Shown: piece after piece, positions 5,684 through 31,336 of the stretch
Numbering within the stretch: the stretch's first letter is position 1
Layout: every line of letters begins with the position of its first letter
Source of the DNA: Xanthobacter dioxanivorans
Lineage (GTDB): Bacteria > Pseudomonadota > Alphaproteobacteria > Rhizobiales > Xanthobacteraceae
Reading direction: 5' to 3'
NCBI RefSeq assembly: GCF_016807805.1
Contig: NZ_CP063362.1
Location: forward strand, 496,001 to 560,000
Length of the DNA stretch: 64,000 bases
Translations under genes and position numbers: made by a program
The notes under the pieces: generated by a model
Seen by the model: the letters and a program-made list of their open reading frames with translations, nothing else
Told to the model about the DNA's origin: nothing
Database searches by the model: none

Positions 5684-5695
5684 GCCGTCGGCTTC

Positions 5696-6910: not shown

Positions 6911-6925
6911 GGGCGTTCCAGCGTG

Positions 6926-7195
6926 TCAGGAGCGGGCGAATTGCCAGATGGCGATGGCCGCGACCGCAGCCGGCACGGCGAAGACCACCAGCAGGATGGG
7001 CAGTTCTTGCGCCACGGTGTAGCCGGCCCTGTTGACGCCGACCCAGAGGTTGGCGACCGACACGATGAGCCAGACAGGGATGAAGACCTTGGCGGCCGTG
7101 GCGAGAGCCGGCGTCGTGCCGCCCCAGAGCTGGCCGAACAGCACGAAGACGCAGAGCAGGACGATGCCCCCCGCGATGACCATCAGCATGTGCAT
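6926..7195 (-). CDS. Small three-helix membrane protein, unknown function
   Basis: An 89-residue protein made of three hydrophobic segments (about residues 4-22, 36-52 and 63-83) separated by short polar loops, one containing 'NLWVGVNRAGYTVAQELP'. I do not recognise a characterised family. It sits between the aldehyde dehydrogenase and LtrA, each on the same strand with gaps of 9 and 15 bases, which supports it as a real gene within a run of co-directional genes. It is expected to lie in the inner membrane. Confidence 0.72.
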   Translation of the reverse strand: MHMLMVIAGGIVLLCVFVLFGQLWGGTTPALATAAKVFIPVWLIVSVANLWVGVNRAGYTVAQELPILLVVFAVPAAVAAIAIWQFARS

Positions 7196-7204
7196 GACGC
7201 CCCC

Positions 7205-8581: not shown

Positions 8582-8632
8582 GACGAAACTCCCGGTGCGG
8601 CGACGCGACGTTGGCTCCATCGAAACAACGTC

Positions 8633-8672
8633 TGAAAAACAGAAGCGGCCGGGGCCCGGCCCCGGCCGCTTC
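8633..8672 (-). terminator. Rho-independent terminator after the SDR gene
   Basis: A perfect 13-bp stem, GAAGCGGCCGGGG (8642-8654) pairing with CCCCGGCCGCTTC (8660-8672), around a 5-base loop. Read on the minus strand the stem is followed by TGTTTTTC, a U-tract. It begins only a few bases after the SDR stop codon, so transcription from the SDR promoter should largely end before the aldehyde dehydrogenase gene. Confidence 0.82.
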
Positions 8673-8677
8673 CCGGG

Positions 8678-9451
8678 TTACTTCGTCGTGTAGCCGCCGT
8701 TGACGAGAATGGTCTGGCCGGTCATCCACCAGCCCTCCGAGACGAGGAAGCGGATGAAGGGGACGATGTCCTCGATGTCGGTCAGGCCGGTCTTGGAGAA
8801 GTTCGACAGCGCCGCCGCGGTCTTGTGATAGGCGACTGCATCGGCGCCCTCGGCGGGGTAGAAAAAGGGGGTATCCATCGGGCCGGGGCCGATCGCCGTC
8901 ACCGAGATGCCGCGCGCGCCGAACTCCTTCGACGCCGCGCGGGTGAAATGTTCGACCGGGGCCTTGGTGCCGGCATAGGCAGCGTAGAAGGGCGTGAACG
9001 CGCCAAGCAGCGACGTCACGACGCTGCAGATCTTGCCCTTGTCGTTGAGGTGCTTTCCGGATTCCTTGATGAAGAAGAAAGCACTCTTCGAGTTCACCGC
9101 CGTCATCTCGTCATATTCAGCTTCCGAGATCTCGACCATCGGCTTCTTCAGCACTTTGCCGACCGTGTTGATGGCGATATCGATGCCACCCAACGCCGCC
9201 TTGGCGTCAGTGAACAGTTTTTCGGTCGCTCCGGCTGTGGTGAGGTCGGCCTGGAAGGCGAAGGCGTCCGCCCCCGCCGCCTTGATCGCCGCCACGGTCT
9301 CGTCGGCGGCCGGCTTTGTGACGCCGGTGTTGTAGTGGACGGCAATCGCCTTCGCGCCCTGCGCGGCGAGATCGCGCGCGATCAGCCCGCCGAGGTTCTT
9401 CGCGCCGCCGGCGATGAGAACGGTTTTTCCCCTGATGCTGTGATCGGTCAT
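8678..9451 (-). CDS. SDR-family oxidoreductase
   Basis: A 257-residue short-chain dehydrogenase with cofactor motif 'VLIAGGAKNLGG' (variant of TGxxxGIG, with Ala-Gly-Gly replacing Thr-Gly), 'INTVGK' in place of NNAG, and active site 'YAAYAGTKA' carrying the Tyr/Lys pair. The C-terminal 'MTGQTILVNGGYTTK' is standard. The ATG at 9451 precedes 'TDHSIRGKTVLIAGG' and is preferred to an upstream in-frame start because of homology length. It is divergent from the LysR gene that starts about 140 bases away, which probably controls it. Substrate unknown. Confidence 0.87.
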   Translation of the reverse strand: MTDHSIRGKTVLIAGGAKNLGGLIARDLAAQGAKAIAVHYNTGVTKPAADETVAAIKAAGADAFAFQADLTTAGATEKLFTDAKAALGGIDIAINTVGKVLKKPMVEISEAEYDEMTAVNSKSAFFFIKESGKHLNDKGKICSVVTSLLGAFTPFYAAYAGTKAPVEHFTRAASKEFGARGISVTAIGPGPMDTPFFYPAEGADAVAYHKTAAALSNFSKTGLTDIEDIVPFIRFLVSEGWWMTGQTILVNGGYTTK

Positions 9452-9590
9452 CGGCGTTGGCCTCCTTGCCCGGCGGCCACCCACGGGACCGCTTCATGCG
9501 GCACACCATATCGTCTATAGATTTCTCATAAATCCGCTCATTTTGACATCACCTGTCAGAAATGACGGACAATCAACCGAGCTGGCGCCC

Positions 9591-10490
9591 GTGGACCGTA
9601 TCGACCTTTTCCGCACCTTCACCCGCGTTGTCGAATGCGCGAGCTTTACCCGCGCCGCCGACACCCTCGGGCTGCCGCGTTCGTCCGTATCGGCCGCTGT
9701 GATCGATCTCGAAGCACGGGTCGGAGCCCGCCTGCTTCACCGCACCACCCGGAAGGTCTCCCCGACCCAGGACGGCGCCGCCTTCTATGAGCGCTGCTTG
9801 CGCCTGATCGCCGATGTGGAGGAGACCGAGGGGTTGTTCCGGCAGACGTCGGTCGGACCGAGCGGTAGCCTGCGCATCGACGTGCCGGGCCGGATCGGGA
9901 GACTGATCATCGCGCCGGCGCTGCCGGAATTCCTCGCCCGCCATCCCCAACTCGACATCGAGCTGCGTGTCACCGATCGGGCGGTGAACCTCGTGGAGGA
10001 GAGCGTCGATTGCGTGCTGCGGGTCGGACCGCTGAGCGATTCAGGTCTCATCGCCCGCAAGATCGGCGACCTCCCGCTGATCAATGTCGCCAGCCCCGGC
10101 TATCTCGCCCGACATGGCACACCGGGCACGCCGGGCGATCTCGGTGGGCATCTGGCCGTCAATTATGCCTCGCCTTCCACGGGTCGCGTCGAGGATTGGG
10201 AATGGGTGGAGGACAGCGAGGTCCGGATGCTGCCGATGCGCGCCCGCGTTACCGTCAACAGCGCCGAAGCTTATATCGCCTGTTGTCTTGCCGATCTCGG
10301 CCTCATCCAGATCCCAGCTTATGACGTCAAACGCCACCTCGCCGCAGGCGAACTCGTCGAGGTCATGCCCGGGCACCGGGCTGCGGCCATGCCGATGACG
10401 CTGCTCTATCCGCACCGTCAGCATCTGTCTCGCAGGCTTCAGGCCTTTGCCGATTGGCTGGAGCAGCTCCTGAAACGGGAAATTCTCTAG
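9591..10490 (+). CDS. LysR-family transcriptional regulator
   Basis: A 299-residue LysR-type regulator: N-terminal winged helix 'DLFRTFTRVVECASFTRAAD ' region with 'LPRSSVSAAVIDLEARVGAR' as recognition helix and 'LLHRTTRKVSPTQDG', then the substrate-binding domain. The pattern is that of the CrgA/DsdC-like group with 'LRIDVPGRIGRLIIAPALPEF'. I prefer the GTG at 9591, which gives a normal N-terminus; an in-frame TTG at 9543 is the alternative. It is divergently oriented to the SDR gene at 8678-9451, the classical arrangement of LysR with its target, and the roughly 140-base spacer is AT-rich. The inducer is unknown. Confidence 0.88.
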   Translation: MDRIDLFRTFTRVVECASFTRAADTLGLPRSSVSAAVIDLEARVGARLLHRTTRKVSPTQDGAAFYERCLRLIADVEETEGLFRQTSVGPSGSLRIDVPGRIGRLIIAPALPEFLARHPQLDIELRVTDRAVNLVEESVDCVLRVGPLSDSGLIARKIGDLPLINVASPGYLARHGTPGTPGDLGGHLAVNYASPSTGRVEDWEWVEDSEVRMLPMRARVTVNSAEAYIACCLADLGLIQIPAYDVKRHLAAGELVEVMPGHRAAAMPMTLLYPHRQHLSRRLQAFADWLEQLLKREIL

Positions 10491-10707: not shown

Positions 10708-11520
10708 TCAGCCCGCCGGCACCTCGCGCAGATAGGCCAGCAGCATCTCGCTGGCATGCCGCCGCCGGTCCGCGCGCCAGCGGGCGCTGGTCAGGGTCGC
10801 GCTGAACAGGTGCGAGAGGGTCGGGGCATTGGAGATGTGGAAATAGCTCAGCGCCACCATGGTCACGTAGAGCTGGAGCGGGTCGACACCGGTGCGGAAC
10901 ACCCCTTCCGCTTCCCCGCGTGCCAGCACGTCGTGGATGGCGTCCATCAGCGGGGAGGAAATGGCGGAGACGCGGGGCGATGTCTTCAGGTACCGACCGC
11001 CCAGCAAATTCTCGCTGGCCAGCAGGCGGATGAACAGCGGATTCGCCGCGAAATGGGCATAGGTGAAGTCGAACAGCTTCATCATGGCCGGCACGGGGGC
11101 GAGGTCGCGCAGGTTGAGCCGCCGCTCCTGGACACGTATGTCCTCGAACACCGTTTCGAGAACCTTCAGGTAGAGCGCCTTCTTGCCTCCGAAATAATGA
11201 TAGAGCATGCGCATGTTGGCATCGGCCCGGCGGGCGATGGCATCGATGCGCGCGCCGTTGTAGCCGTGCTCGGCAAATTCCTCGATGGCGGCGTGAAGAA
11301 TGCGCTCCTGGGTGGCGGCGGCATCGCGCGGACGGCGGCGGCTGGCCGGCTCCAGGCCCGCTTCCTCCGCCAGGGCAGGGACCGCGTCCGGCGGCGGCCG
11401 CCGGGCTGCATCGTGCGTCGTCGCCGGTGCAGCCGCGGACTTGGGCTTCTTGCGGAGGGAGGCAGGCGTCACCGATTGTCCTTTCCGCGCGCCTTTCGCG
11501 CGCTGTTGTTCTGCTCGCAT
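10708..11520 (-). CDS. TetR/AcrR-family transcriptional regulator
   Basis: A 270-residue TetR-type repressor with an unusually long basic, Ala/Pro-rich N-terminal extension of about 65 residues before the DNA-binding helix-turn-helix 'TQERILHAAIEEFAEHGYNG...ANMRMLYHYFGGKKALY'. The C-terminal half contains 'FAANPLFIRLLASENLLGG', a pattern seen in RutR-like and related regulators of nitrogen-compound catabolism. The start at 11520 was chosen for its position; starts further downstream would shorten only the extension. It faces away from the HpaB-type monooxygenase operon, and I infer that it binds the three 19-bp dyads at 11871, 15336 and 15949. Ligand unknown. Confidence 0.88.
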   Translation of the reverse strand: MRAEQQRAKGARKGQSVTPASLRKKPKSAAAPATTHDAARRPPPDAVPALAEEAGLEPASRRRPRDAAATQERILHAAIEEFAEHGYNGARIDAIARRADANMRMLYHYFGGKKALYLKVLETVFEDIRVQERRLNLRDLAPVPAMMKLFDFTYAHFAANPLFIRLLASENLLGGRYLKTSPRVSAISSPLMDAIHDVLARGEAEGVFRTGVDPLQLYVTMVALSYFHISNAPTLSHLFSATLTSARWRADRRRHASEMLLAYLREVPAG

Positions 11521-11870
11521 GGAATTCCCCTCGGTCCGGCCATGTCTTGCGTCAGTCATTCGGGTGCGATCAGCGGCCTCGGTGCCTGCCTCTGGACCCG
11601 ATGCTCCGCGCGCTCCCCACCGGACTTTGCTTTCCCATACACGATCCTGCCATTCAGTGCTGCAGCCTTGAAGATGTCCATAAACGCCGTCGGCGGCGCG
11701 GACCGGCGCCCCTCTCCCGGCAGCGGCCCCGCGCGCCTCGCCAGATCATCCGGCACCTCGCCGGCACTCGGGCCGAAATGCCCCCAGGGGGTACTTCGGA
11801 CACGGCGCTTTCCCATCTCGATTTGCCAAATCCACGCGCCCCTGATGAAACCGCCTTGACGGCCCCATAA
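11521..11870. other. Divergent intergenic region TetR / monooxygenase
   Basis: About 460 bases separate the TetR and monooxygenase starts. No coding motif was seen. The monooxygenase-proximal end carries the promoter and operator listed separately; a second operator copy close to the TetR start was looked for and not found. Confidence 0.5.
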
Positions 11871-11889
11871 GTAAGCATGTTATGCGTAA
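11856..11889 (+). promoter_or_regulatory. Promoter and operator 1 of the monooxygenase operon
   Basis: The dyad GTAAGCATGTTATGCGTAA spans 11871-11889 (half-sites GTAAGCA and TGCGTAA). A TTGACG -35-like box lies at 11856-11861, so the dyad covers the expected -10 region, as a repressor site should. The same motif recurs at 15336-15354 and 15949-15967. The start codon at 11985 is 95 bases downstream. Confidence 0.72.
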
Positions 11890-11984
11890 TAAACGGAGAG
11901 ATCCTTGGCTGTCCAGGCCCATCCGTTCGGGCGGCGGCCCGACCGGCCGGAGGCGCGCAAGGCAATCCGGACGAGGAGAAGGTG

Positions 11985-13442
11985 ATGTTGAGGTCTGGGG
12001 TCGAACAGCTGGAGTCCATCCGGGATGGGCGCAGAGTACTGATCGGGTCGGAACGAGTCGGGGATGTCACCCGCCATCCCGCGTTTATCGGTGCGTGCGA
12101 GACGGTGGCCGGGCTCTATGACCTGAAAAAGGATCCTGTCCATGCGGCGTTCGCTGTCAGCACGGATGAGGACGCAGATCCCTATTCCTCCTATTTCCTC
12201 AAGCCGAGGACGCAAGACGACTTGAGGAAGCGGGCCGCGACCCATCGGCTGATCGCCGGGAAGACCTTTGGCATGTGGGGGCGGTCCATGGACCATGTCG
12301 CCTCCTTCCTGACAGGAATGGCGATGCGGCCCGGGCTCTTCGAGGTCGGTGACAACGACTTCGGCGCCAACATCCAGGCCTTCTACGACAAGGCCCGGAA
12401 GGAAGATGCCTATGTCAGCTACGCCATCAACCCGCCGCAGGGCACGCGCAACCCCGCCGGCTTCGACGGCACAGGGTTCGACAATCCGAGCCTGCGGGTG
12501 GTCGCCGAGACGGATGACGGCATCGTCCTGTCGGGGCTCAAGATGCTGGCCACCGCGGGCGTATTCTCGAACTATCTCTTCATCGGCAACATCACGCCGC
12601 TCGCGCCCGGGCAAACGGCGGAGGCGGTGACCTGCGTGGTGCCCCTGGCCGCAGAAGGGGTCAGCCTGTGGATGCGCAAGCCCTATGACGGAGGCCCGTC
12701 CGATCCCGCGCGCGCCCCGCTGAGCGCGCGCTATGACGAAACCGACGCCATGGTCCTGTGCAAGGACGTCAAGGTGCCGTGGGAGAACGTGTTCACCTAC
12801 AGGGAGCCGGCCCAGACGCGGCGCATCTTCTTCGAGACGCCGGCGCATTCACTGGGAAATCATCAGTCGAACATCCGGTTCCACGAAAAGCTGAAGATGA
12901 TTGCCGGCCTCGCGCACAAGGTGGTTGCCTGCACGGAGGCGGGGCAGATCCCGGCAGTGAAGGAAGCGCTTGGGCGGCTCGCGTCGCTGGAGGCCCTGCT
13001 GGGTGGGGTCATCGAAGGCCAGATCGCCGCGCCGGAGGCCTGGGGCGAGGGCTACGTGGGGGTTAACCGGCGTATGGTCTATGCGGCCCTCAACTGGTGC
13101 ACGGAGAACCATTCCCAGATCATCGACACGCTGCGGGAGCTGTGCGGCGGCGGCATGTTCCAGATGCCGGCGAACCTCTCCGTGCTCGATGATCCAGAGC
13201 TTGCCGCCGATTTCCGCACCTACTTCCGCACCGCGCATGTGGATGCGGAGGCCCGGGCGCAGCTCTTCAGGCTGGCCTGGGATGTGATCGGGACGGAATT
13301 CGCAGGCCGCCACCAGTCCTACGAGAAATTCTATTCGGGCGGGCCCTTCGCGGTGCGTGCCTACAACTACACGATCGCCGACTGGGACGGCTATGACACG
13401 ATCGTGGACGACCTCCTCATGTCATCCGATTGCGGGAACTGA
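11985..13442 (+). CDS. HpaB-family (4-hydroxyphenylacetate 3-hydroxylase type) flavin-dependent monooxygenase
   Basis: A 485-residue protein of the HpaB/PvcC fold (acyl-CoA-dehydrogenase-like, FADH2-dependent). Seen: N-terminal 'YLKDGR'-like segment 'LESIRDGRRVLIGSERVGDV', the central 'YAINPPQGTRNPAG' and 'LSGLKMLATAGVFSNY' regions, and C-terminal 'LCGGGMFQMPANLSVLDDPE', 'GTEFAGRHQSYEKFYSGGPF'. Start at 11985 has a GAGGAGAAGG ribosome site; an upstream in-frame ATG would add 36 non-homologous residues. Family members hydroxylate phenols or N-heteroaromatics using FADH2 from a separate reductase; no reductase gene is present here, so it must be supplied in trans. First gene of the TetR-controlled cluster, three bases upstream of the GST gene. 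Confidence 0.88.
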   Translation: MLRSGVEQLESIRDGRRVLIGSERVGDVTRHPAFIGACETVAGLYDLKKDPVHAAFAVSTDEDADPYSSYFLKPRTQDDLRKRAATHRLIAGKTFGMWGRSMDHVASFLTGMAMRPGLFEVGDNDFGANIQAFYDKARKEDAYVSYAINPPQGTRNPAGFDGTGFDNPSLRVVAETDDGIVLSGLKMLATAGVFSNYLFIGNITPLAPGQTAEAVTCVVPLAAEGVSLWMRKPYDGGPSDPARAPLSARYDETDAMVLCKDVKVPWENVFTYREPAQTRRIFFETPAHSLGNHQSNIRFHEKLKMIAGLAHKVVACTEAGQIPAVKEALGRLASLEALLGGVIEGQIAAPEAWGEGYVGVNRRMVYAALNWCTENHSQIIDTLRELCGGGMFQMPANLSVLDDPELAADFRTYFRTAHVDAEARAQLFRLAWDVIGTEFAGRHQSYEKFYSGGPFAVRAYNYTIADWDGYDTIVDDLLMSSDCGN

Positions 13443-13444
13443 AC

Positions 13445-14224
13445 ATGGCCGAAGCCGACAGCGATATCGTTCTCTATGATGCGGTCGGGGTGCCGAGCCC
13501 TCGCCGCGTGAAGATGTGCATGGCCGAGAAGCGCCTCGCTTTCACCAGCCGCTTCCTGAACATCGGCATGATGGACCAGAAGCGGCAGGAATATCTGGAC
13601 ATCAACCCCACGGGAATGGTGCCGACGCTCGTCCACAAGGGGCAGATCGTCTATGATTCCAATGTCATCAACGAGTATCTGAACGACTGCTTCCCGGAAC
13701 CGCCCCTGGTGCCGGAGAACCCGCTCGACCGTGCCCGGATGCGCATGTGGTTTGCGTTCGAGGCCGATTTTGCCCGGCCTTTCCGGGATGCCTCCTACGA
13801 GACCATGGGCAAGGCGCGGGTCAAGAATGCGGGCCTCGACAAGGCGCAGCTCATGGAGATCATCACCTCCAAAACAAGCAATCCATTCTATTCCAGCCTC
13901 GTGCTCTCCCTGCTGGAGACGCCCACGAACGAAGCGGTGATCGCGGAAAAGCTCCTGCTCATCTTCGAGAAGATGGCAGGGCTCGAGCGTGCGCTTTCCG
14001 ACGGGCGGACCTGGTTGTGCGGCGCCGATTTCACGCTCGCCGATATCGCGGTGGCCCCCCGGCTCGACCAGTTCCCCGTGATCGGCGTGGACGACTTCGC
14101 GGTGCGCTATCCGGCCGCCGGCGCGTGGCTGGAGCGGGTCAAGGCCCGGCCGAGCTGGCAGCTTTCCCTCACCGTCCCGCCACCGGGCGAGACGCAGCTG
14201 CGCGTGGATTTCAGCGCCGCATAG
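13445..14224 (+). CDS. Glutathione S-transferase family protein
   Basis: A 259-residue GST. The thioredoxin-like N-terminal domain runs to about residue 90, with 'SPRRVKMCMAEKRL' (glutathione site region), the cis-Pro segment 'NPTGMVPTLVHKG' and the gamma-glutamyl site 'VIYDSNVINEYLND'. A helical C-terminal domain follows, ending 'WLCGADFTLADIAVAPRLDQF'. Similar in layout to LigE/LigF beta-etherase and maleylacetoacetate isomerase-like GSTs. It starts two bases after the monooxygenase stop, so the two are translationally linked. In this setting it could remove a leaving group by glutathione attack or carry out a cis-trans isomerisation; this is inference. Confidence 0.88.
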   Translation: MAEADSDIVLYDAVGVPSPRRVKMCMAEKRLAFTSRFLNIGMMDQKRQEYLDINPTGMVPTLVHKGQIVYDSNVINEYLNDCFPEPPLVPENPLDRARMRMWFAFEADFARPFRDASYETMGKARVKNAGLDKAQLMEIITSKTSNPFYSSLVLSLLETPTNEAVIAEKLLLIFEKMAGLERALSDGRTWLCGADFTLADIAVAPRLDQFPVIGVDDFAVRYPAAGAWLERVKARPSWQLSLTVPPPGETQLRVDFSAA

Positions 14225-14371
14225 CATCCGTTCCGTGCGGTTCGCGAGGGGCACCCTTCGGGGCCTTTCGCGTGCGCGGCATCCAACTTGCACCAGCGGG
14301 GTCATTCCGCCCCGTCGGATGTTCGGCCGCCGTGCGGCGGGCACCCAGCGAAACCACTTGAGGATGCGGCC

Positions 14372-15118
14372 ATGACAGACCGGCTCGGCTATCGCCTGAA
14401 GATCGGCATCATCATTCCTTCAACCAATACGACGGTGCAGCCGGAGACCGACGCCATGCGTCCGGCCGGCGTCACCAACCATATCGGGCGCATTCATATT
14501 CCTGATCTTCCGCTGACCAACGACACCGAGTTCGAGGCCATGGTGGAGGCCATCGGGCCGGACCTGTTCGGCGCCGTGGACCGGGTGATGACCTGCAAGC
14601 CAGACCATCTGGTGATGGCCATGTCCATTCCCACCTTCTGGGGCGGCAAGGCCGGCGGGGACGAGCTGTTGGCCCGGCTGGAGGCCCGCGCGGGCGTGCC
14701 GGTGAGCATGGGGTCGGCCGCCTGCGTCGAGGCGCTGCGACGGTTTGCGCATGTCAGGCGCATCGGCATTCTCACCCCGTATCAGCCGGTGGGCGATGCC
14801 CATGTGGCCCGCTATTTCGCCGACCACGGCTATGAGGTGAGCAAGGTGGTGAGCCTGATGCGGCCCAGCGAGGTGCAGATCGCCCACGCCACGGAAACCG
14901 ATATCCGCGAGGGGCTGAAAACCCTTGCCGCGTCGGGCGTCGACGCCATCGTGCAGGCGGGCACGGACCTTGCCGTGACCGACATCGCGGACGAGGCGGA
15001 GCGCTGGCTGGGCCTCCCGGTGATCGCGATCAATGCCGCCACCTATTGGCGCGCGCTCCGCCATGCCGGCATTGCGGATCAGATCCCCGGCCGGGGCGTG
15101 CTGCTGGCCAGCCACTGA
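14372..15118 (+). CDS. Asp/Glu racemase-fold protein (maleate isomerase/arylmalonate decarboxylase-like) lacking both catalytic cysteines
   Basis: A 248-residue protein with the fold markers 'RLKIGIIIPSTNTTVQPE', 'RRIGILTPYQPVGDAH' and 'GLPVIAINAATYWRALR', as in maleate cis-trans isomerase and arylmalonate decarboxylase. In those enzymes a Cys sits in the first ('AC.S/T') and second ('..C.N/T') active-site loops. Here the loops read 'VMAMSIPTFWGG' (about 81-92) and 'IVQAGTDL' (about 193-200), and the only cysteines are at 75 and 118, outside the expected sites. So the usual two-thiol chemistry cannot apply. It is the third gene of the TetR cluster, 147 bases after the GST. A role on an unsaturated dicarboxylate or its amide is suggested only by context. 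Confidence 0.85.
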   Translation: MTDRLGYRLKIGIIIPSTNTTVQPETDAMRPAGVTNHIGRIHIPDLPLTNDTEFEAMVEAIGPDLFGAVDRVMTCKPDHLVMAMSIPTFWGGKAGGDELLARLEARAGVPVSMGSAACVEALRRFAHVRRIGILTPYQPVGDAHVARYFADHGYEVSKVVSLMRPSEVQIAHATETDIREGLKTLAASGVDAIVQAGTDLAVTDIADEAERWLGLPVIAINAATYWRALRHAGIADQIPGRGVLLASH

Positions 15119-15153
15119 CCCCGCCGGGGGCGGCTGCCGGAAGGTCGCTTTGC

Positions 15154-15335
15154 CTAGTGGGTGTCCGGAACGGGCGGGTCGGCGCATTCTGATCGTGCAA
15201 TACGGTTTTTAAATACCATTAGACCGCGACGGAAAAACGCCGGCCAGATCCGCGGGTACATCGCAAAAATCAACAAAATCGAGCTATTGATGATCATGTT
15301 GAGGCTTCGGATGCCGCCCATTTCCTGGGCATCAA
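15154..15335. other. AT-rich spacer upstream of RidA
   Basis: A patch clearly richer in A/T than its surroundings (for example around 15205-15215 and 15260-15300) between the racemase-fold gene and RidA. A 47-codon minus-strand frame across it has no recognisable family. It most probably holds the promoter of the RidA gene just upstream of operator 2. Confidence 0.35.
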
Positions 15336-15354
15336 GTAAGCATGTTCTGCGTAC
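15336..15354 (+). promoter_or_regulatory. Operator 2 (TetR-type dyad) upstream of RidA
   Basis: GTAAGCATGTTCTGCGTAC, the best dyad of the three (GTAAGCA / TGCGTAC half-sites). It ends 57 bases before the RidA start codon. Thirteen consecutive positions from the left end are identical except one with operator 1. Confidence 0.72.
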
Positions 15355-15411
15355 AAATGCGCAAAAGTGGGCCACGCAAGCGGGCGTGTGGCGGCGCGTG
15401 GAAGGCGGACG

Positions 15412-15879
15412 ATGAGCGGCATTGTCGCCGGGCGCCTTGCCACCCTCGGGCTTTCCTTGCCGCCCGTTCCGCCGCCGCGCGGGGCGTTCAAGCCCTATTC
15501 GCGCATGGGCAATGTCATCTATCTCGCCGGCCAGATCTGCGAGTGGAACGGCGAGGTACGCCTCGCCGGCCCCATCGGCGCCCTGCATGATCTGGCGGCC
15601 GGCCAGAAGGCCGCGCAATTGTGCGCGCTCAACCTGTTGGCCTCGCTCTCGCTGGCCCTCGATGGCGATCTCGATCGGGTGGTGGCCTGCCATCGGCTCG
15701 GCGGCTTCGTCTTCGCCACGCCCGGCTATCCCGATGTGCCGAAAGTGGTGAATGGGGCCTCCGACCTCATGTTCGCCCTGTTCGGCGAGGCCGGCCGCCA
15801 TGCCCGCACGGCGGTGGGCGTCGCCACACTGCCGGCCGGCGCCAGCGTTGAGGTGGATGGCATCTTCGAGGTGTCCTGA
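15412..15879 (+). CDS. RidA family protein (long, about 155-residue type)
   Basis: A 155-residue member of the RidA/YjgF/YER057c/UK114 superfamily with 'PYSRMGNVIYLAGQICEWNGE', 'AAQLCALNLLASLSLALDGD' and 'HARTAVGVATLPAGASVEVD', which keeps the Arg that binds the substrate carboxylate in true imine deaminases. Such proteins hydrolyse reactive enamine/imine or aminoacrylate intermediates. Its length and N-terminus differ from classical 125-residue RidA and resemble the protein at 42940-43419. It has its own operator copy and follows the racemase-fold gene; in the pyrimidine (Rut) pathway the analogous RutC acts after the amidohydrolase RutB, and a RutB-like gene closes this cluster. Confidence 0.88.
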   Translation: MSGIVAGRLATLGLSLPPVPPPRGAFKPYSRMGNVIYLAGQICEWNGEVRLAGPIGALHDLAAGQKAAQLCALNLLASLSLALDGDLDRVVACHRLGGFVFATPGYPDVPKVVNGASDLMFALFGEAGRHARTAVGVATLPAGASVEVDGIFEVS

Positions 15880-15948
15880 CCCCGCCCGCTCCCGCCCTGC
15901 CCGCGCCGGATTTCTGGCACGATTCTGGCTTGAGCAGCGCGACCGCAA

Positions 15949-15967
15949 GTAAGTGTCTTCTGCATAA
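15949..15967 (+). promoter_or_regulatory. Operator 3 (TetR-type dyad) upstream of the ABC importer
   Basis: GTAAGTGTCTTCTGCATAA, matching operators 1 and 2 at most positions of both half-sites. A TTGAGC box lies at 15930-15935. The dyad ends 25 bases before the binding-protein start codon, close enough to block initiation. Confidence 0.65.
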
Positions 15968-15992
15968 AACCCGAACGAGGACTTCCAGACCG

Positions 15993-17102
15993 ATGCCGCA
16001 AGACAGCTTCACTCCCTCCCGCCGCAGCCTCCTCAAGGCGGGCGGGGCGCTCGCCCTCTGCGCCACCGCCGGCCTGCGCCTCCCCACGCCGGCGATCGCG
16101 CAGACCCGCGCGATCAAGCTGACGCTGCCCTGGCTCGCGAACGGCTCCACGCTGTTCACCTACGTCGCCAAGAACCAGGGCTTCTTCAAAAAGCGCGGGC
16201 TGGAGGTCACCATCTCCCGTGGCTTCGGCTCGGTGGCGGCGGCGCAGACGGTGGGTGCGGGCGAGTTCGATTTCGGCTTCGTGTTCGCCGGCGGCATTAT
16301 CCTGGGCGCCGCACGCGGCCTGCCGCTGGTGGCCATGGGCACGCTCGGCTACGACGCCACGATGGGCATCCTGGTGCGCGCCGACAGCCCCATCAAGACG
16401 GCCAAGGATCTCGAGGGCAAGAAGATCGGCATCGTGCCCACCTCCGCCGAGGCGCCCTACTGGCCGGCATTCGCCCGCAAGGCGGGCATCGACACCTCGG
16501 GCATCTCCATGGTGCAGATGGACAATCGGGTGCTGGAGCAGAGCCTGATCAACAATCAGGTGGATGCCATCACCGCCATCGGCACCTCCTCCGTGCCGGT
16601 AATGATGGCGCTGAAGCAGCCCTCCCGCTTCATGCTGTGGAGCAAGGCCGGCGTCTCCCTCTATGCCGGCCAGGTGGTGACCCGGGCCGAGACGCTGGCC
16701 AAGGACAAGGCCCTGTGCCAGGCGGTGACCGACGCGCTGGTGGAAGGTCTCGTGTTCGCCCTGAAGGACCCGGAGGCCGGCGTCGATATCTTCCTGAAGG
16801 AAGTGCCGGAAGTGGGCGTGACCAAGGGCGGCAAGGAAAACGCCACCATCTCCCAGGGCCTGATGCACTACACCGTGCTCTCCCCCGAGGCCGAGCAGCG
16901 TGCCATCGGCTTTACCGACATGACCAAGGTCGCAGGCATGGTGGACCTGGTCATGGAGTATGGCGCGCCCAAGGATGCCAAGCGGCCCGATCCGGCGACA
17001 CTCTTCACCAATGACTTCGTCGGCGACGTGGGCAAGCTCACGCCCGACCAGTGGGCAAAGGTGAAGGCGAACGTGGCCGAATACGCGGCGATCCTGGGAT
17101 GA
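15993..17102 (+). CDS. ABC transporter substrate-binding protein, NitT/TauT (NMT1/THI5-like) family
   Basis: A 369-residue periplasmic receptor. The N-terminus has a twin-arginine type signal 'SRRSLLKAGGALALC' ending near 'AIAQ' (about residue 35). The mature part shows 'IKLTLPWLANGSTLFTYVAK', 'GFFKKRGLEVTI' and 'GAGEFDFGFVFAGGIILGAA', as in nitrate/sulfonate/taurine and pyrimidine-precursor receptors. Start at 15993 follows ACGAGGA. It overlaps the ATPase gene by four bases (ATGA) and so forms a transporter operon with it and the permease. The ligand is probably a small heteroaromatic or amide substrate of the cluster, by context only. Confidence 0.9.
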   Translation: MPQDSFTPSRRSLLKAGGALALCATAGLRLPTPAIAQTRAIKLTLPWLANGSTLFTYVAKNQGFFKKRGLEVTISRGFGSVAAAQTVGAGEFDFGFVFAGGIILGAARGLPLVAMGTLGYDATMGILVRADSPIKTAKDLEGKKIGIVPTSAEAPYWPAFARKAGIDTSGISMVQMDNRVLEQSLINNQVDAITAIGTSSVPVMMALKQPSRFMLWSKAGVSLYAGQVVTRAETLAKDKALCQAVTDALVEGLVFALKDPEAGVDIFLKEVPEVGVTKGGKENATISQGLMHYTVLSPEAEQRAIGFTDMTKVAGMVDLVMEYGAPKDAKRPDPATLFTNDFVGDVGKLTPDQWAKVKANVAEYAAILG

Positions 17103-17914
17103 GCACGACTCTGGCTACGGCGTCGGCTTCCTCCCCGGCGGAGCCGTTCAACGCCATCACGGCGCGCGCCGTGCGCAAGGTCTACGCCACCCCCTCCGGC
17201 GCCGTCGAGGCGGTGGCGGAGGCGAGCTTTTCGATCGCGCGCGGCGATTTCGTCTCCATCCTCGGCCCGTCGGGCTGCGGCAAGAGCACCCTCATGCTCA
17301 TGGTGGCGGGCCTGGAGCCCGCCACTTCCGGCGCAATCACCCTGGACGGCCTGCCCGTGAACGGCCCGCGGACCTCGGCCGGCATGATGTTCCAGGACCC
17401 GACGCTGCTGCCCTGGCGCTCGGTGCTGGAGAATGTGCTGTTCCCGGTCTCCATGTGCCGGCCGGTGATGCCGGACGACCGGGCGCGGGCGGAACAATTG
17501 CTGCGCATGGTGGATCTGTGGCACTTCCGCGAGAGGCGCCCGCGTGAACTGTCCGGCGGCATGCGCCAGAGGGTGGCGCTCGCCCGCGCGCTCATCAACG
17601 ATCCGCGCATCCTGTTGATGGACGAGCCCTTCTCCGCGCTCGACGCCATCACCCGCGACGAGATGGGTCTGGCGCTGGCGCGCATCTGGGACACCACACG
17701 CAAGACCGCCATCTTCATCACCCATTCCATCCGCGAGGCCATCTTCCTCTCGGACCGGATCCTGGTGATGGGGCGCCGGCCCTCCACCATCGTGGAGGAC
17801 ATCCGGGTGCCCTTCGCGCGGCCGCGCGCCCCGGAGATCGAGGCCGATCCCGCCTTCAACGAGCTCTATCTCCACCTGAAAGCCTCCATCCACCGCGCGC
17901 CGCCGCTCCAGTAG
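17099..17914 (+). CDS. ABC transporter ATP-binding protein (SsuB/TauB/NrtD type)
   Basis: A 271-residue ATPase with Walker A 'GPSGCGKST' (about residues 59-67), Q-loop 'MMFQDPTLLPWRSV', signature 'LSGGMRQRVALARAL', Walker B 'ILLMDEPFSALD' and the switch His in 'IFITHSIREA'. The 'LLPWR' in the Q-loop region is typical for nitrate/sulfonate/taurine importers. Its start overlaps the binding-protein stop and the permease follows after 71 bases. It energises import together with the neighbouring permease at the cytoplasmic face. Confidence 0.93.
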   Translation: MSTTLATASASSPAEPFNAITARAVRKVYATPSGAVEAVAEASFSIARGDFVSILGPSGCGKSTLMLMVAGLEPATSGAITLDGLPVNGPRTSAGMMFQDPTLLPWRSVLENVLFPVSMCRPVMPDDRARAEQLLRMVDLWHFRERRPRELSGGMRQRVALARALINDPRILLMDEPFSALDAITRDEMGLALARIWDTTRKTAIFITHSIREAIFLSDRILVMGRRPSTIVEDIRVPFARPRAPEIEADPAFNELYLHLKASIHRAPPLQ

Positions 17915-17985
17915 CGGCGCAAGGTAACGAGGGCTCCGTCCATGATTTCTCCTTCGATCATCTTTGCGACCCTGGCTCCTTCCCG

Positions 17986-18831
17986 ATGACGGCGACCCAT
18001 CTCATGCCCGATCTCACCACCCCGTCGAGCCCCGCCGCCCCGCCGCCGCCCGGCCTGGCGGCGCGCGGCTTGGCGGGTGCGCGCGCCCGCATCCGCCCGT
18101 TCGCGCTGCCCATTCTCACCGCCGCACTGATCATTGCCGCCTGGGAAGTTGTGGTGCGGGTGCGCCACATTCCCGAGGTGCTGCTGCCGGCTCCCTCGGC
18201 GGTCGCTGCGCGGTTGTGGGAGACGCTGCCCTTTCTACTGCAGCAGGCGGTGCCCACGACGCTGGAAACCGTGGCGGGGTTCGCCATCTCCACCGTGCTC
18301 GGCATTTCGCTGGCCGTGCTGGTGACCGCCTCGCGCTTCGCCCGCGAGGCGCTTTATCCGAACATCGTGTTCTTCCAACTCATCCCAAAGATCGCGCTGG
18401 CGCCGCTCTTCATCGTGTGGCTTGGCATCGGCTCGCCTTCGCGGGTTACCTTTTCGGTGTTCATCTCCTTCTTCCCCGTGGTGGTGGCGACGCTGACCGG
18501 CCTGACCTCGGTGGATCGGGACCTGCTGCGGCTGTGCCGGGCGGTGGGCGCACGGGGGTGGAAGGTCTATACCCAGGTGCGCTTTCCGGCGGCGGTGCCG
18601 CACATTTTCTCCGGGCTGAAGATCGCCATTACCTTCGCCATGATCGGGGTGATCGTGGGCGAGTTCATCACCGCCCAGGCGGGGCTCGGCTACATGATCC
18701 TATTCGCCGCCTCGCAGGCGGAAATGGCGCTCATCTTCGCCTCCATCGTCCTTCTCTGCGTCATCGGCCTCGCCCTCTATGCCCTAGTGGTGGTGGCGGA
18801 GGCGTTCGCGCTCAAACGCTACGGAGCCTAA
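17986..18831 (+). CDS. ABC transporter permease (SsuC/TauC type)
   Basis: A 281-residue membrane protein with a Pro/Ala-rich cytoplasmic N-terminus of about 30 residues, then six predicted transmembrane helices. The EAA-type coupling loop is 'AVGARGWKVYTQVRFPAAVPHIFSGLKIA', followed by 'VGEFITAQAGLGYMIL', both typical of the binding-protein-dependent transport family for nitrate/sulfonate-like solutes. The stop is separated from the RutB-like start by two bases. It is the only permease subunit, so a homodimer is expected. Confidence 0.91.
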   Translation: MTATHLMPDLTTPSSPAAPPPPGLAARGLAGARARIRPFALPILTAALIIAAWEVVVRVRHIPEVLLPAPSAVAARLWETLPFLLQQAVPTTLETVAGFAISTVLGISLAVLVTASRFAREALYPNIVFFQLIPKIALAPLFIVWLGIGSPSRVTFSVFISFFPVVVATLTGLTSVDRDLLRLCRAVGARGWKVYTQVRFPAAVPHIFSGLKIAITFAMIGVIVGEFITAQAGLGYMILFAASQAEMALIFASIVLLCVIGLALYALVVVAEAFALKRYGA

Positions 18832-18833
18832 GC

Positions 18834-19577
18834 ATGTCCACCGCCCCCGTTTCACAGGCCTATGCCTCCGGCGCCCTCGCCGTCCCCACCGCGCCCGGCG
18901 CCAACATCGTCATCGCCGCACGGCCCGAGCCCGTGGCGCTCTCCATCGCCACCACCGCTCTGGTGGTGGTGGACATGCAGAACGCCTATCTCTCCAAGGG
19001 CGGCTATCTGGACCGGGTGGGGTTCGATGTCTCCACCAGCCCGCCGGTGATCGCGGCGGCGGCACGGGTGCTGAAGGCGGCGCGCGATGCGGGCCTGTTC
19101 GTCGCCCATCTGCAAAACGGCTTCTCGGCGGACCAGGCCGAGGCCGGCGGGCCGACTTCGCCGGTCTGGTACAAGTCGAATGCGCTCAAATACATGCGCG
19201 CGAACCCGGAGCAGCGCGGCACGCTGATCACCCATGGCACATGGGACCACGCCATTGTCGACGAACTGACCCCGCTGCCCGGGGAAGCCGTTGTGCCGAA
19301 GGCGCGCTACAGCGGGTTCGCCGGCACCAATCTGGAGCAGTTGCTGCGGGCGCGCGGCATCACCACCCTGCTGCTGGTGGGGGTGAACAGCAATGTGTGC
19401 GTGGAATCCACCTTGCGCGACGCCTACCATCGCGAGTTCTTCGCCGTGATGGTACCGGAAGCAACGCTTCAGGCCGGGCCGCGGGCCATCCATGACGGCA
19501 GCGTGTTCAACGTGGAAAGTTTCCTCGGCTGGACCGCGACGGTGGATGCGGTGGCCGCCGCCCTCGATGCCAGTTGA
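18834..19577 (+). CDS. RutB-like amidohydrolase (isochorismatase/cysteine hydrolase family)
   Basis: A 247-residue cysteine hydrolase with the triad Asp47 ('VVVDMQNAY'), Lys156 ('VPKARYSGF') and Cys189 ('NVCVESTLRDA'). Over its length it follows ureidoacrylate amidohydrolase RutB: 'GGYLDRVGFDVST', 'QAEAGGPTSPVWYKSNALK', 'THGTWDHAIVDELTP'. RutB releases carbamate and aminoacrylate from ureidoacrylate in pyrimidine ring opening. The monooxygenase RutA is absent from the window, so a different ring-opened amide is probably the substrate. It is the last gene of the cluster, two bases after the permease. An in-frame extension upstream overlapping the permease has no homology and was rejected. Confidence 0.87.
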   Translation: MSTAPVSQAYASGALAVPTAPGANIVIAARPEPVALSIATTALVVVDMQNAYLSKGGYLDRVGFDVSTSPPVIAAAARVLKAARDAGLFVAHLQNGFSADQAEAGGPTSPVWYKSNALKYMRANPEQRGTLITHGTWDHAIVDELTPLPGEAVVPKARYSGFAGTNLEQLLRARGITTLLLVGVNSNVCVESTLRDAYHREFFAVMVPEATLQAGPRAIHDGSVFNVESFLGWTATVDAVAAALDAS

Positions 19578-19671
19578 AAACTGAAATCCGGCGTCCCGTC
19601 AGGCATGCCGTTCATGAGGTTCTCGAACGCCCCGTCTCGATCGTGCCGGTGGAACCCTCGCCTCTTATGAC

Positions 19672-19900
19672 GTGGCCGGCTCCGGCCCGTCGCTGATGCT
19701 GGTGACCGGCCTTGGTGGCGCGCCCCACCAGCATGCGACGAGGGCTGCGAGGCACAGGGAAGCCAGATCGTTCGGGGCCAGCTGTCGTATCGGGATGCGA
19801 TGCGCCGGAAGCCCTCGAGCGGCAGAACGTACGCTCGATGGCGTTGCGCCGAAGGTTCCAGCCAGCGCGGAATTCGCCCCCGCCGCTTCCCGCCGGGCCG
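19672..19900 (-). mobile_element. IS5-family transposase remnant (C-terminal end, frameshifted)
   Basis: On the minus strand one frame reads 'WNLRRNAIERTFCR', and after a frameshift the next reads 'LEGFRRIASRYD', followed after another shift by 'LAPNDLASLCLAALVACWW'. Together these are the C-terminal end of an IS5-group DDE transposase, including the 'RN.IER.F.R' helix with the catalytic Glu, but spread over several frames. The 5' part is missing. It separates the TetR cluster from the isethionate module and marks a recombination scar. No terminal inverted repeats were found. Confidence 0.72.
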
Positions 19901-19907
19901 CTGCGCA

Positions 19908-20729
19908 TCAGCTGTCCGCGTCGTCGTCGCCGGAATCGGGAAGGGTGGCTGCTAGCCGTTCCGCCGCTTCCAGCAGGTTGGGCACCAGGGCTTTCGCCTT
20001 CTCCAGCGAGAACCGCGGCAGGGGGCCGTGGCAGGCCACCGCCGCCACCACCGTGCCGCGCCGGTCCTTCACCGGGACGGCGATGGCGACCAGCCCTTCC
20101 AGGAACTCCTGATCATCCGTGCTGTAGCCACTCCTCGCGATGCGCTCCAGCTCCGCGTCCAGTTCCTGCACGGTGGTGATGGTGTTCGGCGTCTGGGCCT
20201 TCAGGTGCAGCGTTTCCAGGATGCGCCGGCGCTGGACGGGGCGCATGGCGGAGAGGAACAGCTTGCCGGAGGCCGTGCAATGCATGGGTACGCGCGAACC
20301 CACCTCCAGATGCATGCGCAGGGGCCAGGCGGCCTCCACACGATCGAGATAGATCGCCTCGCTGCCCACGCGGGTGACGAAATTGCAGGTCTCGCCCGCC
20401 ACTTCCACGAGCGCCTCCAGGATGCCGCGCCGCTCGGTGCTCACCGAATTGCGCAGCATGTCGAAGCCCATGCGCAGGAAGCGCGGCCCCACGGCGAAGC
20501 GCCGCCCGTCCGGCTCGCGCAGGAGATAAGATTCGGCCTCCAGCTTCTGGCACAAACGGTGGACCGTGGGCTTGGGCAAAGACAGGCGCACACAGAGTTC
20601 CGGCACGCCCAGGGGCGTCTCGGACCTGGCGATCTCGCCCAGGAGATCAAGCGCCCGGAGCATGGCGGAGGCGTTGTCACGCTCCTCCGGTTTCTCCGGC
20701 TTTTCCGCCTGCTGCTTCGCCCTGGCCAT
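19908..20729 (-). CDS. iseR: IclR-family regulator of the isethionate module
   Basis: A 273-residue IclR-type regulator: N-terminal winged helix 'SAMLRALDLLGEIARSETPLGVPELCVRLSLPKPTVHRLCQKLEAE' region (about residues 25-70) and a C-terminal effector-binding domain with 'VPMHCTASGKLFLSAM' and 'QEFLEGLVAIAVPVKDRRG'. Start at 20729 chosen because the upstream frame is basic and non-homologous. It is divergent from a GMC dehydrogenase gene, followed by importer, xsc and pta genes. From memory, isethionate clusters of terrestrial bacteria carry an IclR-type regulator called IseR in this setting; the symbol rests on that synteny. It probably binds the palindrome at 20833-20847. Confidence 0.8.
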   Translation of the reverse strand: MARAKQQAEKPEKPEERDNASAMLRALDLLGEIARSETPLGVPELCVRLSLPKPTVHRLCQKLEAESYLLREPDGRRFAVGPRFLRMGFDMLRNSVSTERRGILEALVEVAGETCNFVTRVGSEAIYLDRVEAAWPLRMHLEVGSRVPMHCTASGKLFLSAMRPVQRRRILETLHLKAQTPNTITTVQELDAELERIARSGYSTDDQEFLEGLVAIAVPVKDRRGTVVAAVACHGPLPRFSLEKAKALVPNLLEAAERLAATLPDSGDDDADS

Positions 20730-20832
20730 CTGAATCGCCACGCCCTTCCGCCGCAGCACCCTTAGCGGCTGGCGACGGTGTGTCAAACGGAACGCAGGTG
20801 CACACGAAACCCTTCGCGCCGCACAACTTAAA

Positions 20833-20847
20833 TCTCATTAAATGAGA
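20833..20847. promoter_or_regulatory. Palindromic operator, IclR/GMC divergent region
   Basis: A perfect 15-base inverted repeat, TCTCATT-A-AATGAGA, lies 76 bases before the dehydrogenase start and 104 bases from the regulator start. A further partial half-site ATCTCATCC follows near 20876, next to a TTGACT box. Its symmetry and position between divergent genes fit an IclR-type binding site controlling both. Confidence 0.7.
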
Positions 20848-20922
20848 CGTTTTAGTTCAAAAAATGGATTGACTCATCTCATCCCTTCGTCGCATCGTCA
20901 GGTCCGCAGAGAGGAAACTGCC

Positions 20923-22629
20923 ATGCAAGGCGAGGAAAACTTCGACTTCGTCGTCATCGGCGCCGGGTCGTCGGGGTGTGTTCTGGCCAATCGCCTGAGC
21001 GAAGACGGTAAAAGCCGCGTTGCTCTCGTCGAGGCTGGTCCAAAGGACACTAATCCCTGGATTCACGTACCCATCGGCTATGGGAAGACCATGTGGAACG
21101 ACCGGCTCAACTGGCGTTTCCACACAGAACCTGAGCCCACCATGGGCGACCGGCGCATCTACTGGCCACGCGGCCGCGTGCTGGGGGGCTGCTCCTCCAT
21201 CAACGGCCTCATCGTCATCCGCGGCCAGCAGGAGGATTACGACGGCTGGGCGGCCCGCGGCGCCACCGGCTGGGGATTTGCCGACGTGCTGCCCTATTTC
21301 CGCAAGCTGGAGGACAATCCCAGCTTCGCCGGCGATCCGCTGCACGGCACCGACGGGCCGGTGACGGTCAGTTCCATTCCGCGCAAGCACGAGCTCATTG
21401 AAGTCATCAAGGAAACCGGCCGAACCCTCGGCGTGCCGGAGACGGCGGACTTCAACGGCGCCCGGCAGGAGGGCGTGGGCTATTACCAGCTCACCACCCG
21501 CAAGGGCTTCCGCATGAGCGCGGCCAAGGCCTACCTCGCCCCCGCCAAGGGCCGCCCGAACCTCACCATCCTCACCGACACCCAGGCCCGCCGCGTGCTG
21601 TTCGCGAACGGCCGCGCCGTCGGCGTGGAGGTGAGCGCCGGGGGCCACGTCAAGGTCATCAAGGCGCGCCGAGGGGTGATCCTGTCCGCCGGCGCGGTGC
21701 AGTCGCCCCACCTGCTCATGCTCTCGGGCATCGGGCCGGCGGCGCACCTCAAGGCCAACGGCATCGGCGTCCATGTGGACAGCCCCGGCGTGGGCGGCAA
21801 TCTGCAGGACCATCTGCAGCTGCGCCTGCTCTACCGCTGCACCAAGCCCATCACCACCAACGATGCGCTGAACTCCGTGTTCGGCCGCCTCAAGATGGGC
21901 CTCGAATACCTGCTGTTCCGCGGCGGGCCGCTGGCCATCGGCATCAACCAGGGCGGGCTGTTCACGCGGGTGCTGCCGGAATCGAAGACACCGGACATCC
22001 AGTTCCACATCGGCACGCTCTCCGCCGACATGGCCGGCGGCAAGGTGCATGACTATTCCGGCTTCACCCTCTCGGTCTGCCAGCTCCGGCCCGAAAGCAC
22101 GGGATGGGTGCGGCTCGGCTCCGGCGAGCCACTCGAGGCGCCAAAGATCACCGCCAATTATCTCGCCACCGAGACCGACCGGCGCTGCGCGCTCGGCGCC
22201 ATGAAGTTCGCCCGCAAGCTCGCCGCCACCGATCCGCTGAAGAGCTATGTGGCGGAGGAGAAGCTGCCCGGCCCGGGCGTCACCGACGACGAGGGCCTCC
22301 TCGCCTTCGCCCGTGAATATGGGGCGACCATCTTCCACCCCGCCGGCACTTGCCGGATCGGCCCCGACGACGACTGCGATGCGGTGGTGGACCCGCGCCT
22401 ACGGGTCCGTGGCGTCGATGGCCTGTGGGTGGTGGATTGCTCCGTGATGCCGACCCTCGTGTCCGGCAACACCAATATTCCCGCGATCATGATCGGAGAA
22501 AAAGCCGCCGACATGATCCGCGAGGACGCACTGAACAACAGGAATGGGCGAGACAACGCCCCAAATCAAATCAATGACGGGAGGACACAACAATGGCTGG
22601 GCAAGCGGGAGCTTCAAGTCGCGAGCTGA
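20923..22629 (+). CDS. iseJ: GMC-family FAD oxidoreductase, probable isethionate dehydrogenase
   Basis: A 568-residue glucose-methanol-choline oxidoreductase. FAD-binding 'FVVIGAGSSGCVLANRLSE' starts at residue 9, the GMC signature 1 is 'GRVLGGCSSINGLIVIRG', signature 2 is 'GAVQSPHLLMLSGIG', and the C-terminal active-site His region is 'FHPAGTCRIGPDDD...SVMPTLVSGNTNIPAIMIGEKAAD'. It would oxidise a primary alcohol to an aldehyde. Its partners, a divergent IclR regulator and downstream MFS importer, Xsc and Pta, make isethionate (2-hydroxyethanesulfonate) to sulfoacetaldehyde the natural assignment. Choline dehydrogenase is the generic alternative. The physiological electron acceptor, a cytochrome c in described systems, is not encoded nearby. 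Confidence 0.78.
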   Translation: MQGEENFDFVVIGAGSSGCVLANRLSEDGKSRVALVEAGPKDTNPWIHVPIGYGKTMWNDRLNWRFHTEPEPTMGDRRIYWPRGRVLGGCSSINGLIVIRGQQEDYDGWAARGATGWGFADVLPYFRKLEDNPSFAGDPLHGTDGPVTVSSIPRKHELIEVIKETGRTLGVPETADFNGARQEGVGYYQLTTRKGFRMSAAKAYLAPAKGRPNLTILTDTQARRVLFANGRAVGVEVSAGGHVKVIKARRGVILSAGAVQSPHLLMLSGIGPAAHLKANGIGVHVDSPGVGGNLQDHLQLRLLYRCTKPITTNDALNSVFGRLKMGLEYLLFRGGPLAIGINQGGLFTRVLPESKTPDIQFHIGTLSADMAGGKVHDYSGFTLSVCQLRPESTGWVRLGSGEPLEAPKITANYLATETDRRCALGAMKFARKLAATDPLKSYVAEEKLPGPGVTDDEGLLAFAREYGATIFHPAGTCRIGPDDDCDAVVDPRLRVRGVDGLWVVDCSVMPTLVSGNTNIPAIMIGEKAADMIREDALNNRNGRDNAPNQINDGRTQQWLGKRELQVAS

Positions 22630-23933: not shown

Positions 23934-24006
23934 CCTGTCCCCGACCCGGAGGCGGCGCGCGGCCGCCGCCTCCCTCTCTCCCAGGTTCCAAGAGGATTTT
24001 TCCGTC

Positions 24007-29801: not shown

Positions 29802-29805
29802 GGGA

Positions 29806-30801: not shown

Positions 30802-31336
<535 letters not shown>

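Follow-up and report, generated by a model that had tools for sequence, protein, structure and literature searches.

The described systems that most resemble the gene cluster analysed here are the Rut pathway (RutA-G), the lower part of the nicotinate (Nic) pathway and the pathway of PyrA, an HpaB-type enzyme that opens a pyridine ring and is followed by an amidohydrolase. The cluster lies in Xanthobacter dioxanivorans, in a window (the whole 64,000-nucleotide stretch analysed) that covers C1:496001-560000 of a 5-contig, 6.65-Mb genome. In it a reverse-strand TetR-family gene diverges from eight forward-strand genes (Table 1), which encode an HpaB-type monooxygenase, a glutathione S-transferase (GST)-fold protein, a protein of the maleate isomerase/arylmalonate decarboxylase (AMDase) fold that we call RAC, a Rid-family protein (RidA), the solute-binding protein (SBP), ATPase and permease of an ATP-binding cassette (ABC) importer, and a RutB-like hydrolase. 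Our gene calls and domain families agree here, positions included, with a preliminary description of this DNA, to which we add a sigma-54-type site at 14277-14292 and a RutD-like remnant at 19636-19740. All families are clear from their domains, and none of the proteins reached a listed equivalog cut-off in an NCBIfam scan.

The cluster shares with the Rut pathway a RutB-like amidohydrolase, a Rid protein, a TetR-family regulator and an oxidation step, as well as a RutD-like hydrolase, which is found in three relatives and as a remnant in the window. It differs in that no RutA, RutE, RutF or RutG was recognised in the cluster, in scores below the equivalog cut-offs, in an oxidation module of HpaB-type enzyme plus GST (a molybdenum hydroxylase in relatives), and in the additional RAC and ABC importer. 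With the Nic lower pathway it has in common an isochorismatase fold and a maleate-isomerase fold, but RAC lacks the catalytic cysteines, the hydrolase is closest to RutB and no NicX was recognised in the cluster. The likeness to the PyrA pathway, taken from what is known of that pathway and not from compared sequences, is that of an HpaB-type opener of an N-heterocycle followed by an amidohydrolase; to our knowledge that pathway has no RAC, Rid or RutB. We lean towards reading the cluster as a catabolic operon whose substrate would be a small ring compound, either a cyclic ureide or a pyrimidine-like N-heterocycle, used as a source of nitrogen and perhaps of carbon. In this reading a Rut-like lower pathway is joined to an exchangeable oxidation module that stands where Rut has RutA.

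Related genomes separate the cluster into a conserved core and a variable oxidation module. A search of 397 relatives with RAC gave ten genomes, including the window's own, at E <= 1e-105 (at least 72% identity); none of 13 same-genus genomes carried RAC at this threshold, and among 385 genomes of the wider class it was found at E <= 1e-100 in the window genome alone. Stretches of all nine other RAC genomes (L108-L116) were compared, together with one from G514, a genome of another family, which was found through RidA (L144). As RidA and not RAC was the probe of the order-wide search, more core carriers may exist in the order. Homology matches in these loci were listed mostly at 40% identity or above; the relatives' gene maps follow a simple rule of GC by position and may err in detail, and the evidence used is that of genes found by homology. 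The order RAC-RidA-SBP-ATPase-permease-RutB is kept, with TetR nearby, in L108-L112 (five of the nine RAC genomes), and L144 holds TetR, RAC, RidA, SBP and a partial ATPase before its contig ends. TetR is present in all six of these core relatives (66-78% identity), and the RAC-to-RutB genes of the window are intact reading frames with 70-91% identity to their counterparts. The four other family genomes (L113-L116, from G033, G134, G185 and G080) have RAC at 72% identity or more but not the core, and G506 has a 76% identical RidA with no other high-identity core gene in the 19 kb read. In L114-L116 the neighbours of RAC (72-74%) are ABC genes of the branched-chain type and distant forms of an alpha/beta hydrolase and of a molybdenum hydroxylase.

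In all six core relatives a molybdenum hydroxylase adjoins the core, made up of an FAD subunit and a 2Fe-2S/molybdopterin fusion protein, with a split version in L109. Five relatives have it between TetR and RAC, the order in L109 being RAC, TetR, hydroxylase. Identity to the enzyme of L110 is 41-82%, and 34-50% for the split one of L109. The stretches read around the core contain no match of at least 40% to the monooxygenase or the GST in any of the six; two of these relatives (G071, G169) carry a relative of the monooxygenase, at 50-51% identity, in another part of the genome. Because the core pairs with the hydroxylase in six of six and with the monooxygenase or GST in none, these two genes are best seen as a swapped-in module. 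The preliminary description had treated the eight genes as one set; the set is composite, and its inheritance as a single unit is ruled out by the gene content of the relatives and by a break in DNA homology.

That break is visible against the nearest relative, L108. Homology covers 10718-11349, where it ends inside TetR, and resumes at 14360 just before RAC with nothing between, continuing in pieces to 19566 and in a final piece at 19666-19727; the part of L108 between the homologous blocks is the molybdenum hydroxylase (4105-7688). This stop in TetR and resumption at RAC indicate that the monooxygenase-GST pair replaced the hydroxylase. No hydroxylase remnant was detected between TetR and RAC of the window by tblastn with the L110 proteins, and the relatives' enzyme has no close counterpart anywhere in the window genome (34 matching places, the best at 35%). 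In an unrooted tree of seven taxa and 928 aligned columns the window groups with L108 against the other five, with 97% for the split, so that replacement in the window lineage requires the fewest changes. The simplest history is therefore that in this lineage the pair took the place of the hydroxylase. GC by codon position showed nothing striking in the pair. At 27609-31399 the window also encodes a three-gene molybdenum hydroxylase (a PaoC-like large subunit below its cut-off, with FAD and 2Fe-2S subunits), distant from that of the relatives' core.

The monooxygenase resembles 4-hydroxyphenylacetate 3-monooxygenase (HpaB) in its HpaB_N (221 bits) and HpaB (154 bits) domains, both over gathering cut-offs, but falls below both HpaB equivalog cut-offs (225 against 480 bits for HpaB-1) and has no adjoining reductase. 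HpaB Arg100 is kept, whereas His104 and Tyr146 stand in place of Tyr104 and His142; these residues are invariant in 29 of 29 aligned relatives. The enzyme thus lacks the Arg100-Tyr104-His142 signature of the FAD-dependent class, as the roles of these residues are given in PMC10537072. Flavin_Reduct matches number 14 in the genome, all of them outside the window.

The surroundings of related monooxygenases were compared in 80 genome loci, many on short contigs. RAC relatives occur in 11, which bears out the monooxygenase/racemase-fold neighbourhood that the preliminary description proposed to look for in other genomes, RutB/isochorismatase relatives in seven, GST relatives (50-58%) in four and a Rid relative in one; the complete gene set of the window occurs in none of the 80. 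The best plasmid relative, from 267 records, has 37.6% identity. In a Rhizobium locus (L006) and a similar one (L007) the monooxygenase-GST pair stands with an isochorismatase, a flavin reductase and an importer, and also with a pyrimidine-type nucleoside hydrolase, an N-carbamoyl hydrolase, a TRZ/ATZ deaminase and proteins resembling PuuE and BhcC (families from a scan of L006). It could be argued that the pair is a separate unit for aromatic compounds that landed between TetR and RAC, leaving the RAC-RutB operon to work alone or to decay. Upstream of RAC a sigma-54-type site of its own persists, the RutD-like gene is no longer intact, the molybdenum hydroxylase is absent, and 69 of the 80 loci show no RAC, all of which would suit such an event. 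We consider it unlikely, as the RAC-to-RutB genes are still open at 70-91% identity, related monooxygenases do occur near RAC relatives in the remaining loci, and the pair occupies the very position of the hydroxylase in five relatives.

The affinity of the lower pathway to Rut is seen in its hydrolases and Rid protein. The RutB-like hydrolase scores 292.9 bits against TIGR03614 (cut-off 377.95), RutB still being its best match, and 240 bits against the RutB structure 8bkd; the Asp, Lys and Cys positions that we take to be catalytic are conserved in its alignment with RutB. The Rid protein falls within PF14588 and its arginine region is conserved with 3d01 and PA0814, the conserved Arg presumably corresponding to Arg104/105 of the known motif. 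RutC is a 3-aminoacrylate deaminase that requires an arginine, according to PMC8113886. An alpha/beta hydrolase follows RutB in L108, L111 and L112, and for those of L108 and L112 the best model is RutD (TIGR03611, 223 and 216 bits against a cut-off of 238.5). Following RutB there is no RutD-like gene in L110 and just a short opposite-strand match in L109; L144 ends before this position, and its weak 24% match lies elsewhere. The window retains a 35-residue remnant (63% identity), which does not amount to a RutD. No RutA exceeds the cut-off anywhere in the genome, the best of 17 matches having 177 against 498.3 bits. RutA, NicX and a flavin reductase were correctly noted as missing in the preliminary description, in so far as none is among the cluster genes; no genome-wide search was made for NicX. 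Since the RutA and equivalog tests fail, the cluster is not a member of the Rut family, and we file it as a variant of a Rut-like lower pathway outside the family proper. The importer SBP has weak PDB relatives (50 bits or less) that include N-formylaminopyrimidine-binding and THI5/THI13 proteins, the top score belonging to another protein. A different arrangement recurs in L145-L148 and L152, with a TetR relative, an isochorismatase (28-31% to RutB), a Rid protein (58-62%) and ABC genes that by eye resemble a BMP/nucleoside-type transporter.

RAC has its best profile matches in the Pfam Amdase (64 bits) and EutA (86 bits) families, yet lies below the equivalog cut-offs of both EutA (TIGR02990, 85.7 against 318 bits) and AMDase (64.8 against 225 bits). 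Its predicted structure (pLDDT 91.6) was compared with the PDB by Foldseek, giving an uncharacterised Rhodococcus protein (4ix1) first, followed by maleate isomerase 2xed (TM 0.85-0.86) and AMDase. Where this fold has its two catalytic cysteines, RAC has Met84 and Gly197 in the alignments. Met84 is at the first catalytic Cys of maleate isomerase, or at Gly74 of AMDase if read gap-free from Phe89, and Gly197 is at Cys194 of maleate isomerase and Cys188 of AMDase. The label Cys-less in the preliminary description is therefore right for the catalytic positions and wrong for the protein, which contains Cys75 and Cys118. Among 1716 RAC homologues at E <= 0.001, the 120 close ones for which these positions were counted all have Met84 and all have Gly197; in 43 additional copies, drawn from the fetched loci and in part from the same genomes, position 84 is Met in 36, Ile, Val or Leu in five and unread in two, and position 197 is Gly in 41 and a gap in two. 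Ser85, Tyr137 and Thr198 are conserved and stand at dioxyanion-hole positions of AMDase, whose residues Cys188 and Gly74 are described in PMC4996985. Together with the fold, Ser85, Tyr137 and Thr198 suggest that RAC binds a carboxylate or enediolate, and as the catalytic cysteines are missing, the racemisation or isomerisation performed by its relatives is not expected of it.

Maleate isomerase was itself considered as the function of RAC and is rejected on the catalytic positions. This bears directly on a Nic-type lower pathway, in which pyridine hydroxylation and ring opening would be followed by an isochorismatase-fold maleamate amidase and by RAC as maleate isomerase, yielding fumarate. 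The fold of RAC does match maleate isomerase, and an isochorismatase relative, RAC and monooxygenase occur together in L024, L045 and L072, but with the cysteines replaced throughout the close homologues, a hydrolase closest to RutB and no NicX among the cluster genes, such a pathway is distinctly improbable. We also know of no role for a Rid protein or a RutD-like hydrolase in the Nic pathway. Of the two themes that the preliminary description saw combined, the Rut theme is thus strengthened, by RutB-like and Rid proteins and by RutD-like hydrolases in three relatives, and the Nic theme weakened. The eight plasmid loci with RAC relatives that were read have mixed surroundings. On a Roseomonas plasmid a 52% relative adjoins RutA (615 bits, cut-off 498); two further loci inspected for the EutA comparison are not annotated EutA. 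On a Thioclava plasmid RAC adjoins an FAD-dependent monooxygenase, and a gene of the isochorismatase family is close by. In L164-L166, on Rhizobium, Leisingera and Bradyrhizobium plasmids, RAC relatives (37-41%) stand beside amino-acid-adenylation genes of the non-ribosomal peptide synthetase type.

The best NCBIfam model for the TetR protein is RutR, at 50 bits far under the cut-off of 368. Upstream of RAC, all six core relatives have two divergent sigma-54-type sites, the opposite one facing the molybdenum hydroxylase (in L109, TetR). When the six loci were divided into 2071 overlapping segments of 250 nt, 22 held a site of at least 10/12 on each strand, every one of them overlapping the stretch just upstream of RAC; the loci being related, this is evidence of conservation and rarity and not of six independent events. 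The window has its RAC-facing site between the GST and RAC genes, with the same 16 bases as in L108. Control by sigma-54 is a typical feature of nitrogen scavenging, and the sites of the relatives, like the weaker one before RAC in the window, fit nitrogen control. Before other monooxygenases the best sites score 6-8 in L006 and L007 and 6 in L045, and L027 has none in the forward direction. RAC-facing sites of 10/12 are also present in L115 and L116. A scan for sigma-70 promoters and terminators stayed at chance level.

In the pathway that we favour, the NMT1-type ABC importer would take up the compound, as its family suggests, and oxidation would follow, by the molybdenum hydroxylase in relatives and by the HpaB-type monooxygenase in the window genome; the replacement comes from the comparison above, the chemistry from the families. 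A reductase encoded elsewhere in the genome would supply the monooxygenase with reduced flavin, and the GST-fold protein may handle a reactive or cis-configured product. RAC would then act on the oxidised product, after which the RutB-like hydrolase would cut a carbamoyl or amide group and the Rid protein would deaminate the resulting enamine, probably assisted in some relatives by the RutD-like hydrolase. A cyclic ureide or pyrimidine-like substrate class is moderately supported, on the grounds of the RutB/Rid/RutD affinity and of two nucleobase-type neighbourhoods, in Rhizobium and Roseomonas. The families found uphold the earlier view of a TetR-linked catabolic cluster with an importer, an oxidation step and RutB/RidA-type steps, and likewise no published pathway with this gene set was found in the open-access literature. 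That description also put forward ring opening by the monooxygenase and a GST-assisted isomerisation or dehalogenation as conceivable steps. More tentatively, the cluster may represent a way of scavenging nitrogen from a nucleobase-like ring not described before. Oxidation modules without common ancestry could then serve one conserved Rut-like lower pathway, and RAC, lacking its catalytic cysteines, would perform a new reaction on the oxidised ring, for example opening or decarboxylating it.

Several observations weigh against this pathway. The RutD-like gene is broken in the window and whole in three of the six relatives (L144 ends too early), and the RutB-like and RutD-like proteins are below NCBIfam equivalog cut-offs. 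The sigma-54-type site of the window reaches 9/12, a score attained in 43 of 500 shuffles of the 250-nt stretch; the homologous L108 site also has 9/12, the forward 10/12 site of L108 being a different, unaligned one farther upstream, and before the window monooxygenase there is no good site (best 8/12). The monooxygenase has mixed surroundings, most of the loci compared showing no RAC on their often short contigs. The Rhizobium evidence comes from two similar loci, whose nucleoside hydrolase, PuuE-like protein, deaminase and BhcC-like protein are below equivalog cut-offs. In L109 the molybdenum hydroxylase is split, lies beyond TetR and is just 34-50% like that of L110. Finally, molybdenum hydroxylases and HpaB-type enzymes differ in chemistry, so the substrates of the two modules may not be the same. 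HpaB-type enzymes with GST-type dehalogenation are known from chlorophenol pathways, and the PDB relatives include chlorophenol and nitrophenol monooxygenases of the HpaB type. By analogy with these the cluster might degrade or detoxify a halogenated or nitrated N-heterocycle, with the GST acting reductively. In favour of this, the annotated chlorophenol-4-monooxygenase 4oo2 (187 bits) is near the best 4-hydroxyphenylacetate enzyme (191 bits). The other chlorophenol-type chains are lower (100-118 bits), however, and nothing in the hydroxylase-bearing relatives hints at a halogenated substrate, which makes this the least probable of the alternatives.

The Rut-like reading with an exchangeable oxidation module predicts nitrogen control, one import ligand for both versions of the operon, and ureido or enamine intermediates. 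The cluster looks like a clean natural case of two non-homologous oxidases in one operon slot, and the identity of its substrate would give a chemistry both to the proteins of the AMDase/maleate isomerase type that lack the catalytic cysteines and to an HpaB-type family without assigned function.

Table 1. Features of the cluster, with positions in the window
Feature	Position	Strand	Basis or remark
TetR-family regulator (TetR_N + TetR_C_29)	10708..11559	-	conserved-core member
HpaB-type flavin-dependent monooxygenase, oxygenase component, 485 aa	11985..13442	+	HpaB_N/HpaB domains; swapped-in module
GST-fold protein	13445..14224	+	starts 2 nt past monooxygenase stop codon; swapped-in module
Sigma-54-type (-24/-12) site CGGCATCCAACTTGCA, RAC-facing	14277..14292	+	9/12 consensus positions; 79 nt before RAC
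RAC, maleate-isomerase/AMDase-fold (Asp/Glu-racemase-fold) protein, 248 aa, without catalytic cysteines	14372..15118	+	profile, alignment, model
Rid-family protein (PF14588)	15412..15879	+	Pfam
NMT1/SsuA-type SBP of ABC importer, Tat-type signal	15993..17102	+	profile search
ABC importer ATPase	17099..17914	+	profile search
ABC importer permease	17986..18831	+	profile search
RutB-like isochorismatase-fold amidohydrolase	18834..19577	+	TIGR03614, RutB 8bkd alignment
RutD-like alpha/beta hydrolase remnant, 35 aa, 63% identity, broken	19636..19740	+	match to gene after RutB in L108, L111, L112

Left of TetR, the stretch 7205-10490 holds genes for aldehyde dehydrogenase and SDR proteins and, in divergent orientation, a LysR-type regulator (assigned by eye); it falls beyond the DNA homology to L108. 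The next cluster on the right (19908-26926) encodes an IclR regulator, a GMC-type oxidoreductase, an MFS transporter, Xsc (sulfoacetaldehyde acetyltransferase, 1030 bits) and phosphate acetyltransferase, the last two over their cut-offs, and looks like one for isethionate or sulfoacetaldehyde catabolism. Farther along, at 40789-43413, a threonine/hydroxyaspartate-type dehydratase (below cut-offs), a 422-aa protein of no assigned family and another Rid protein, which shares 47% identity with that of the cluster, are encoded in a row upstream of what by eye appears to be a TRAP transporter.

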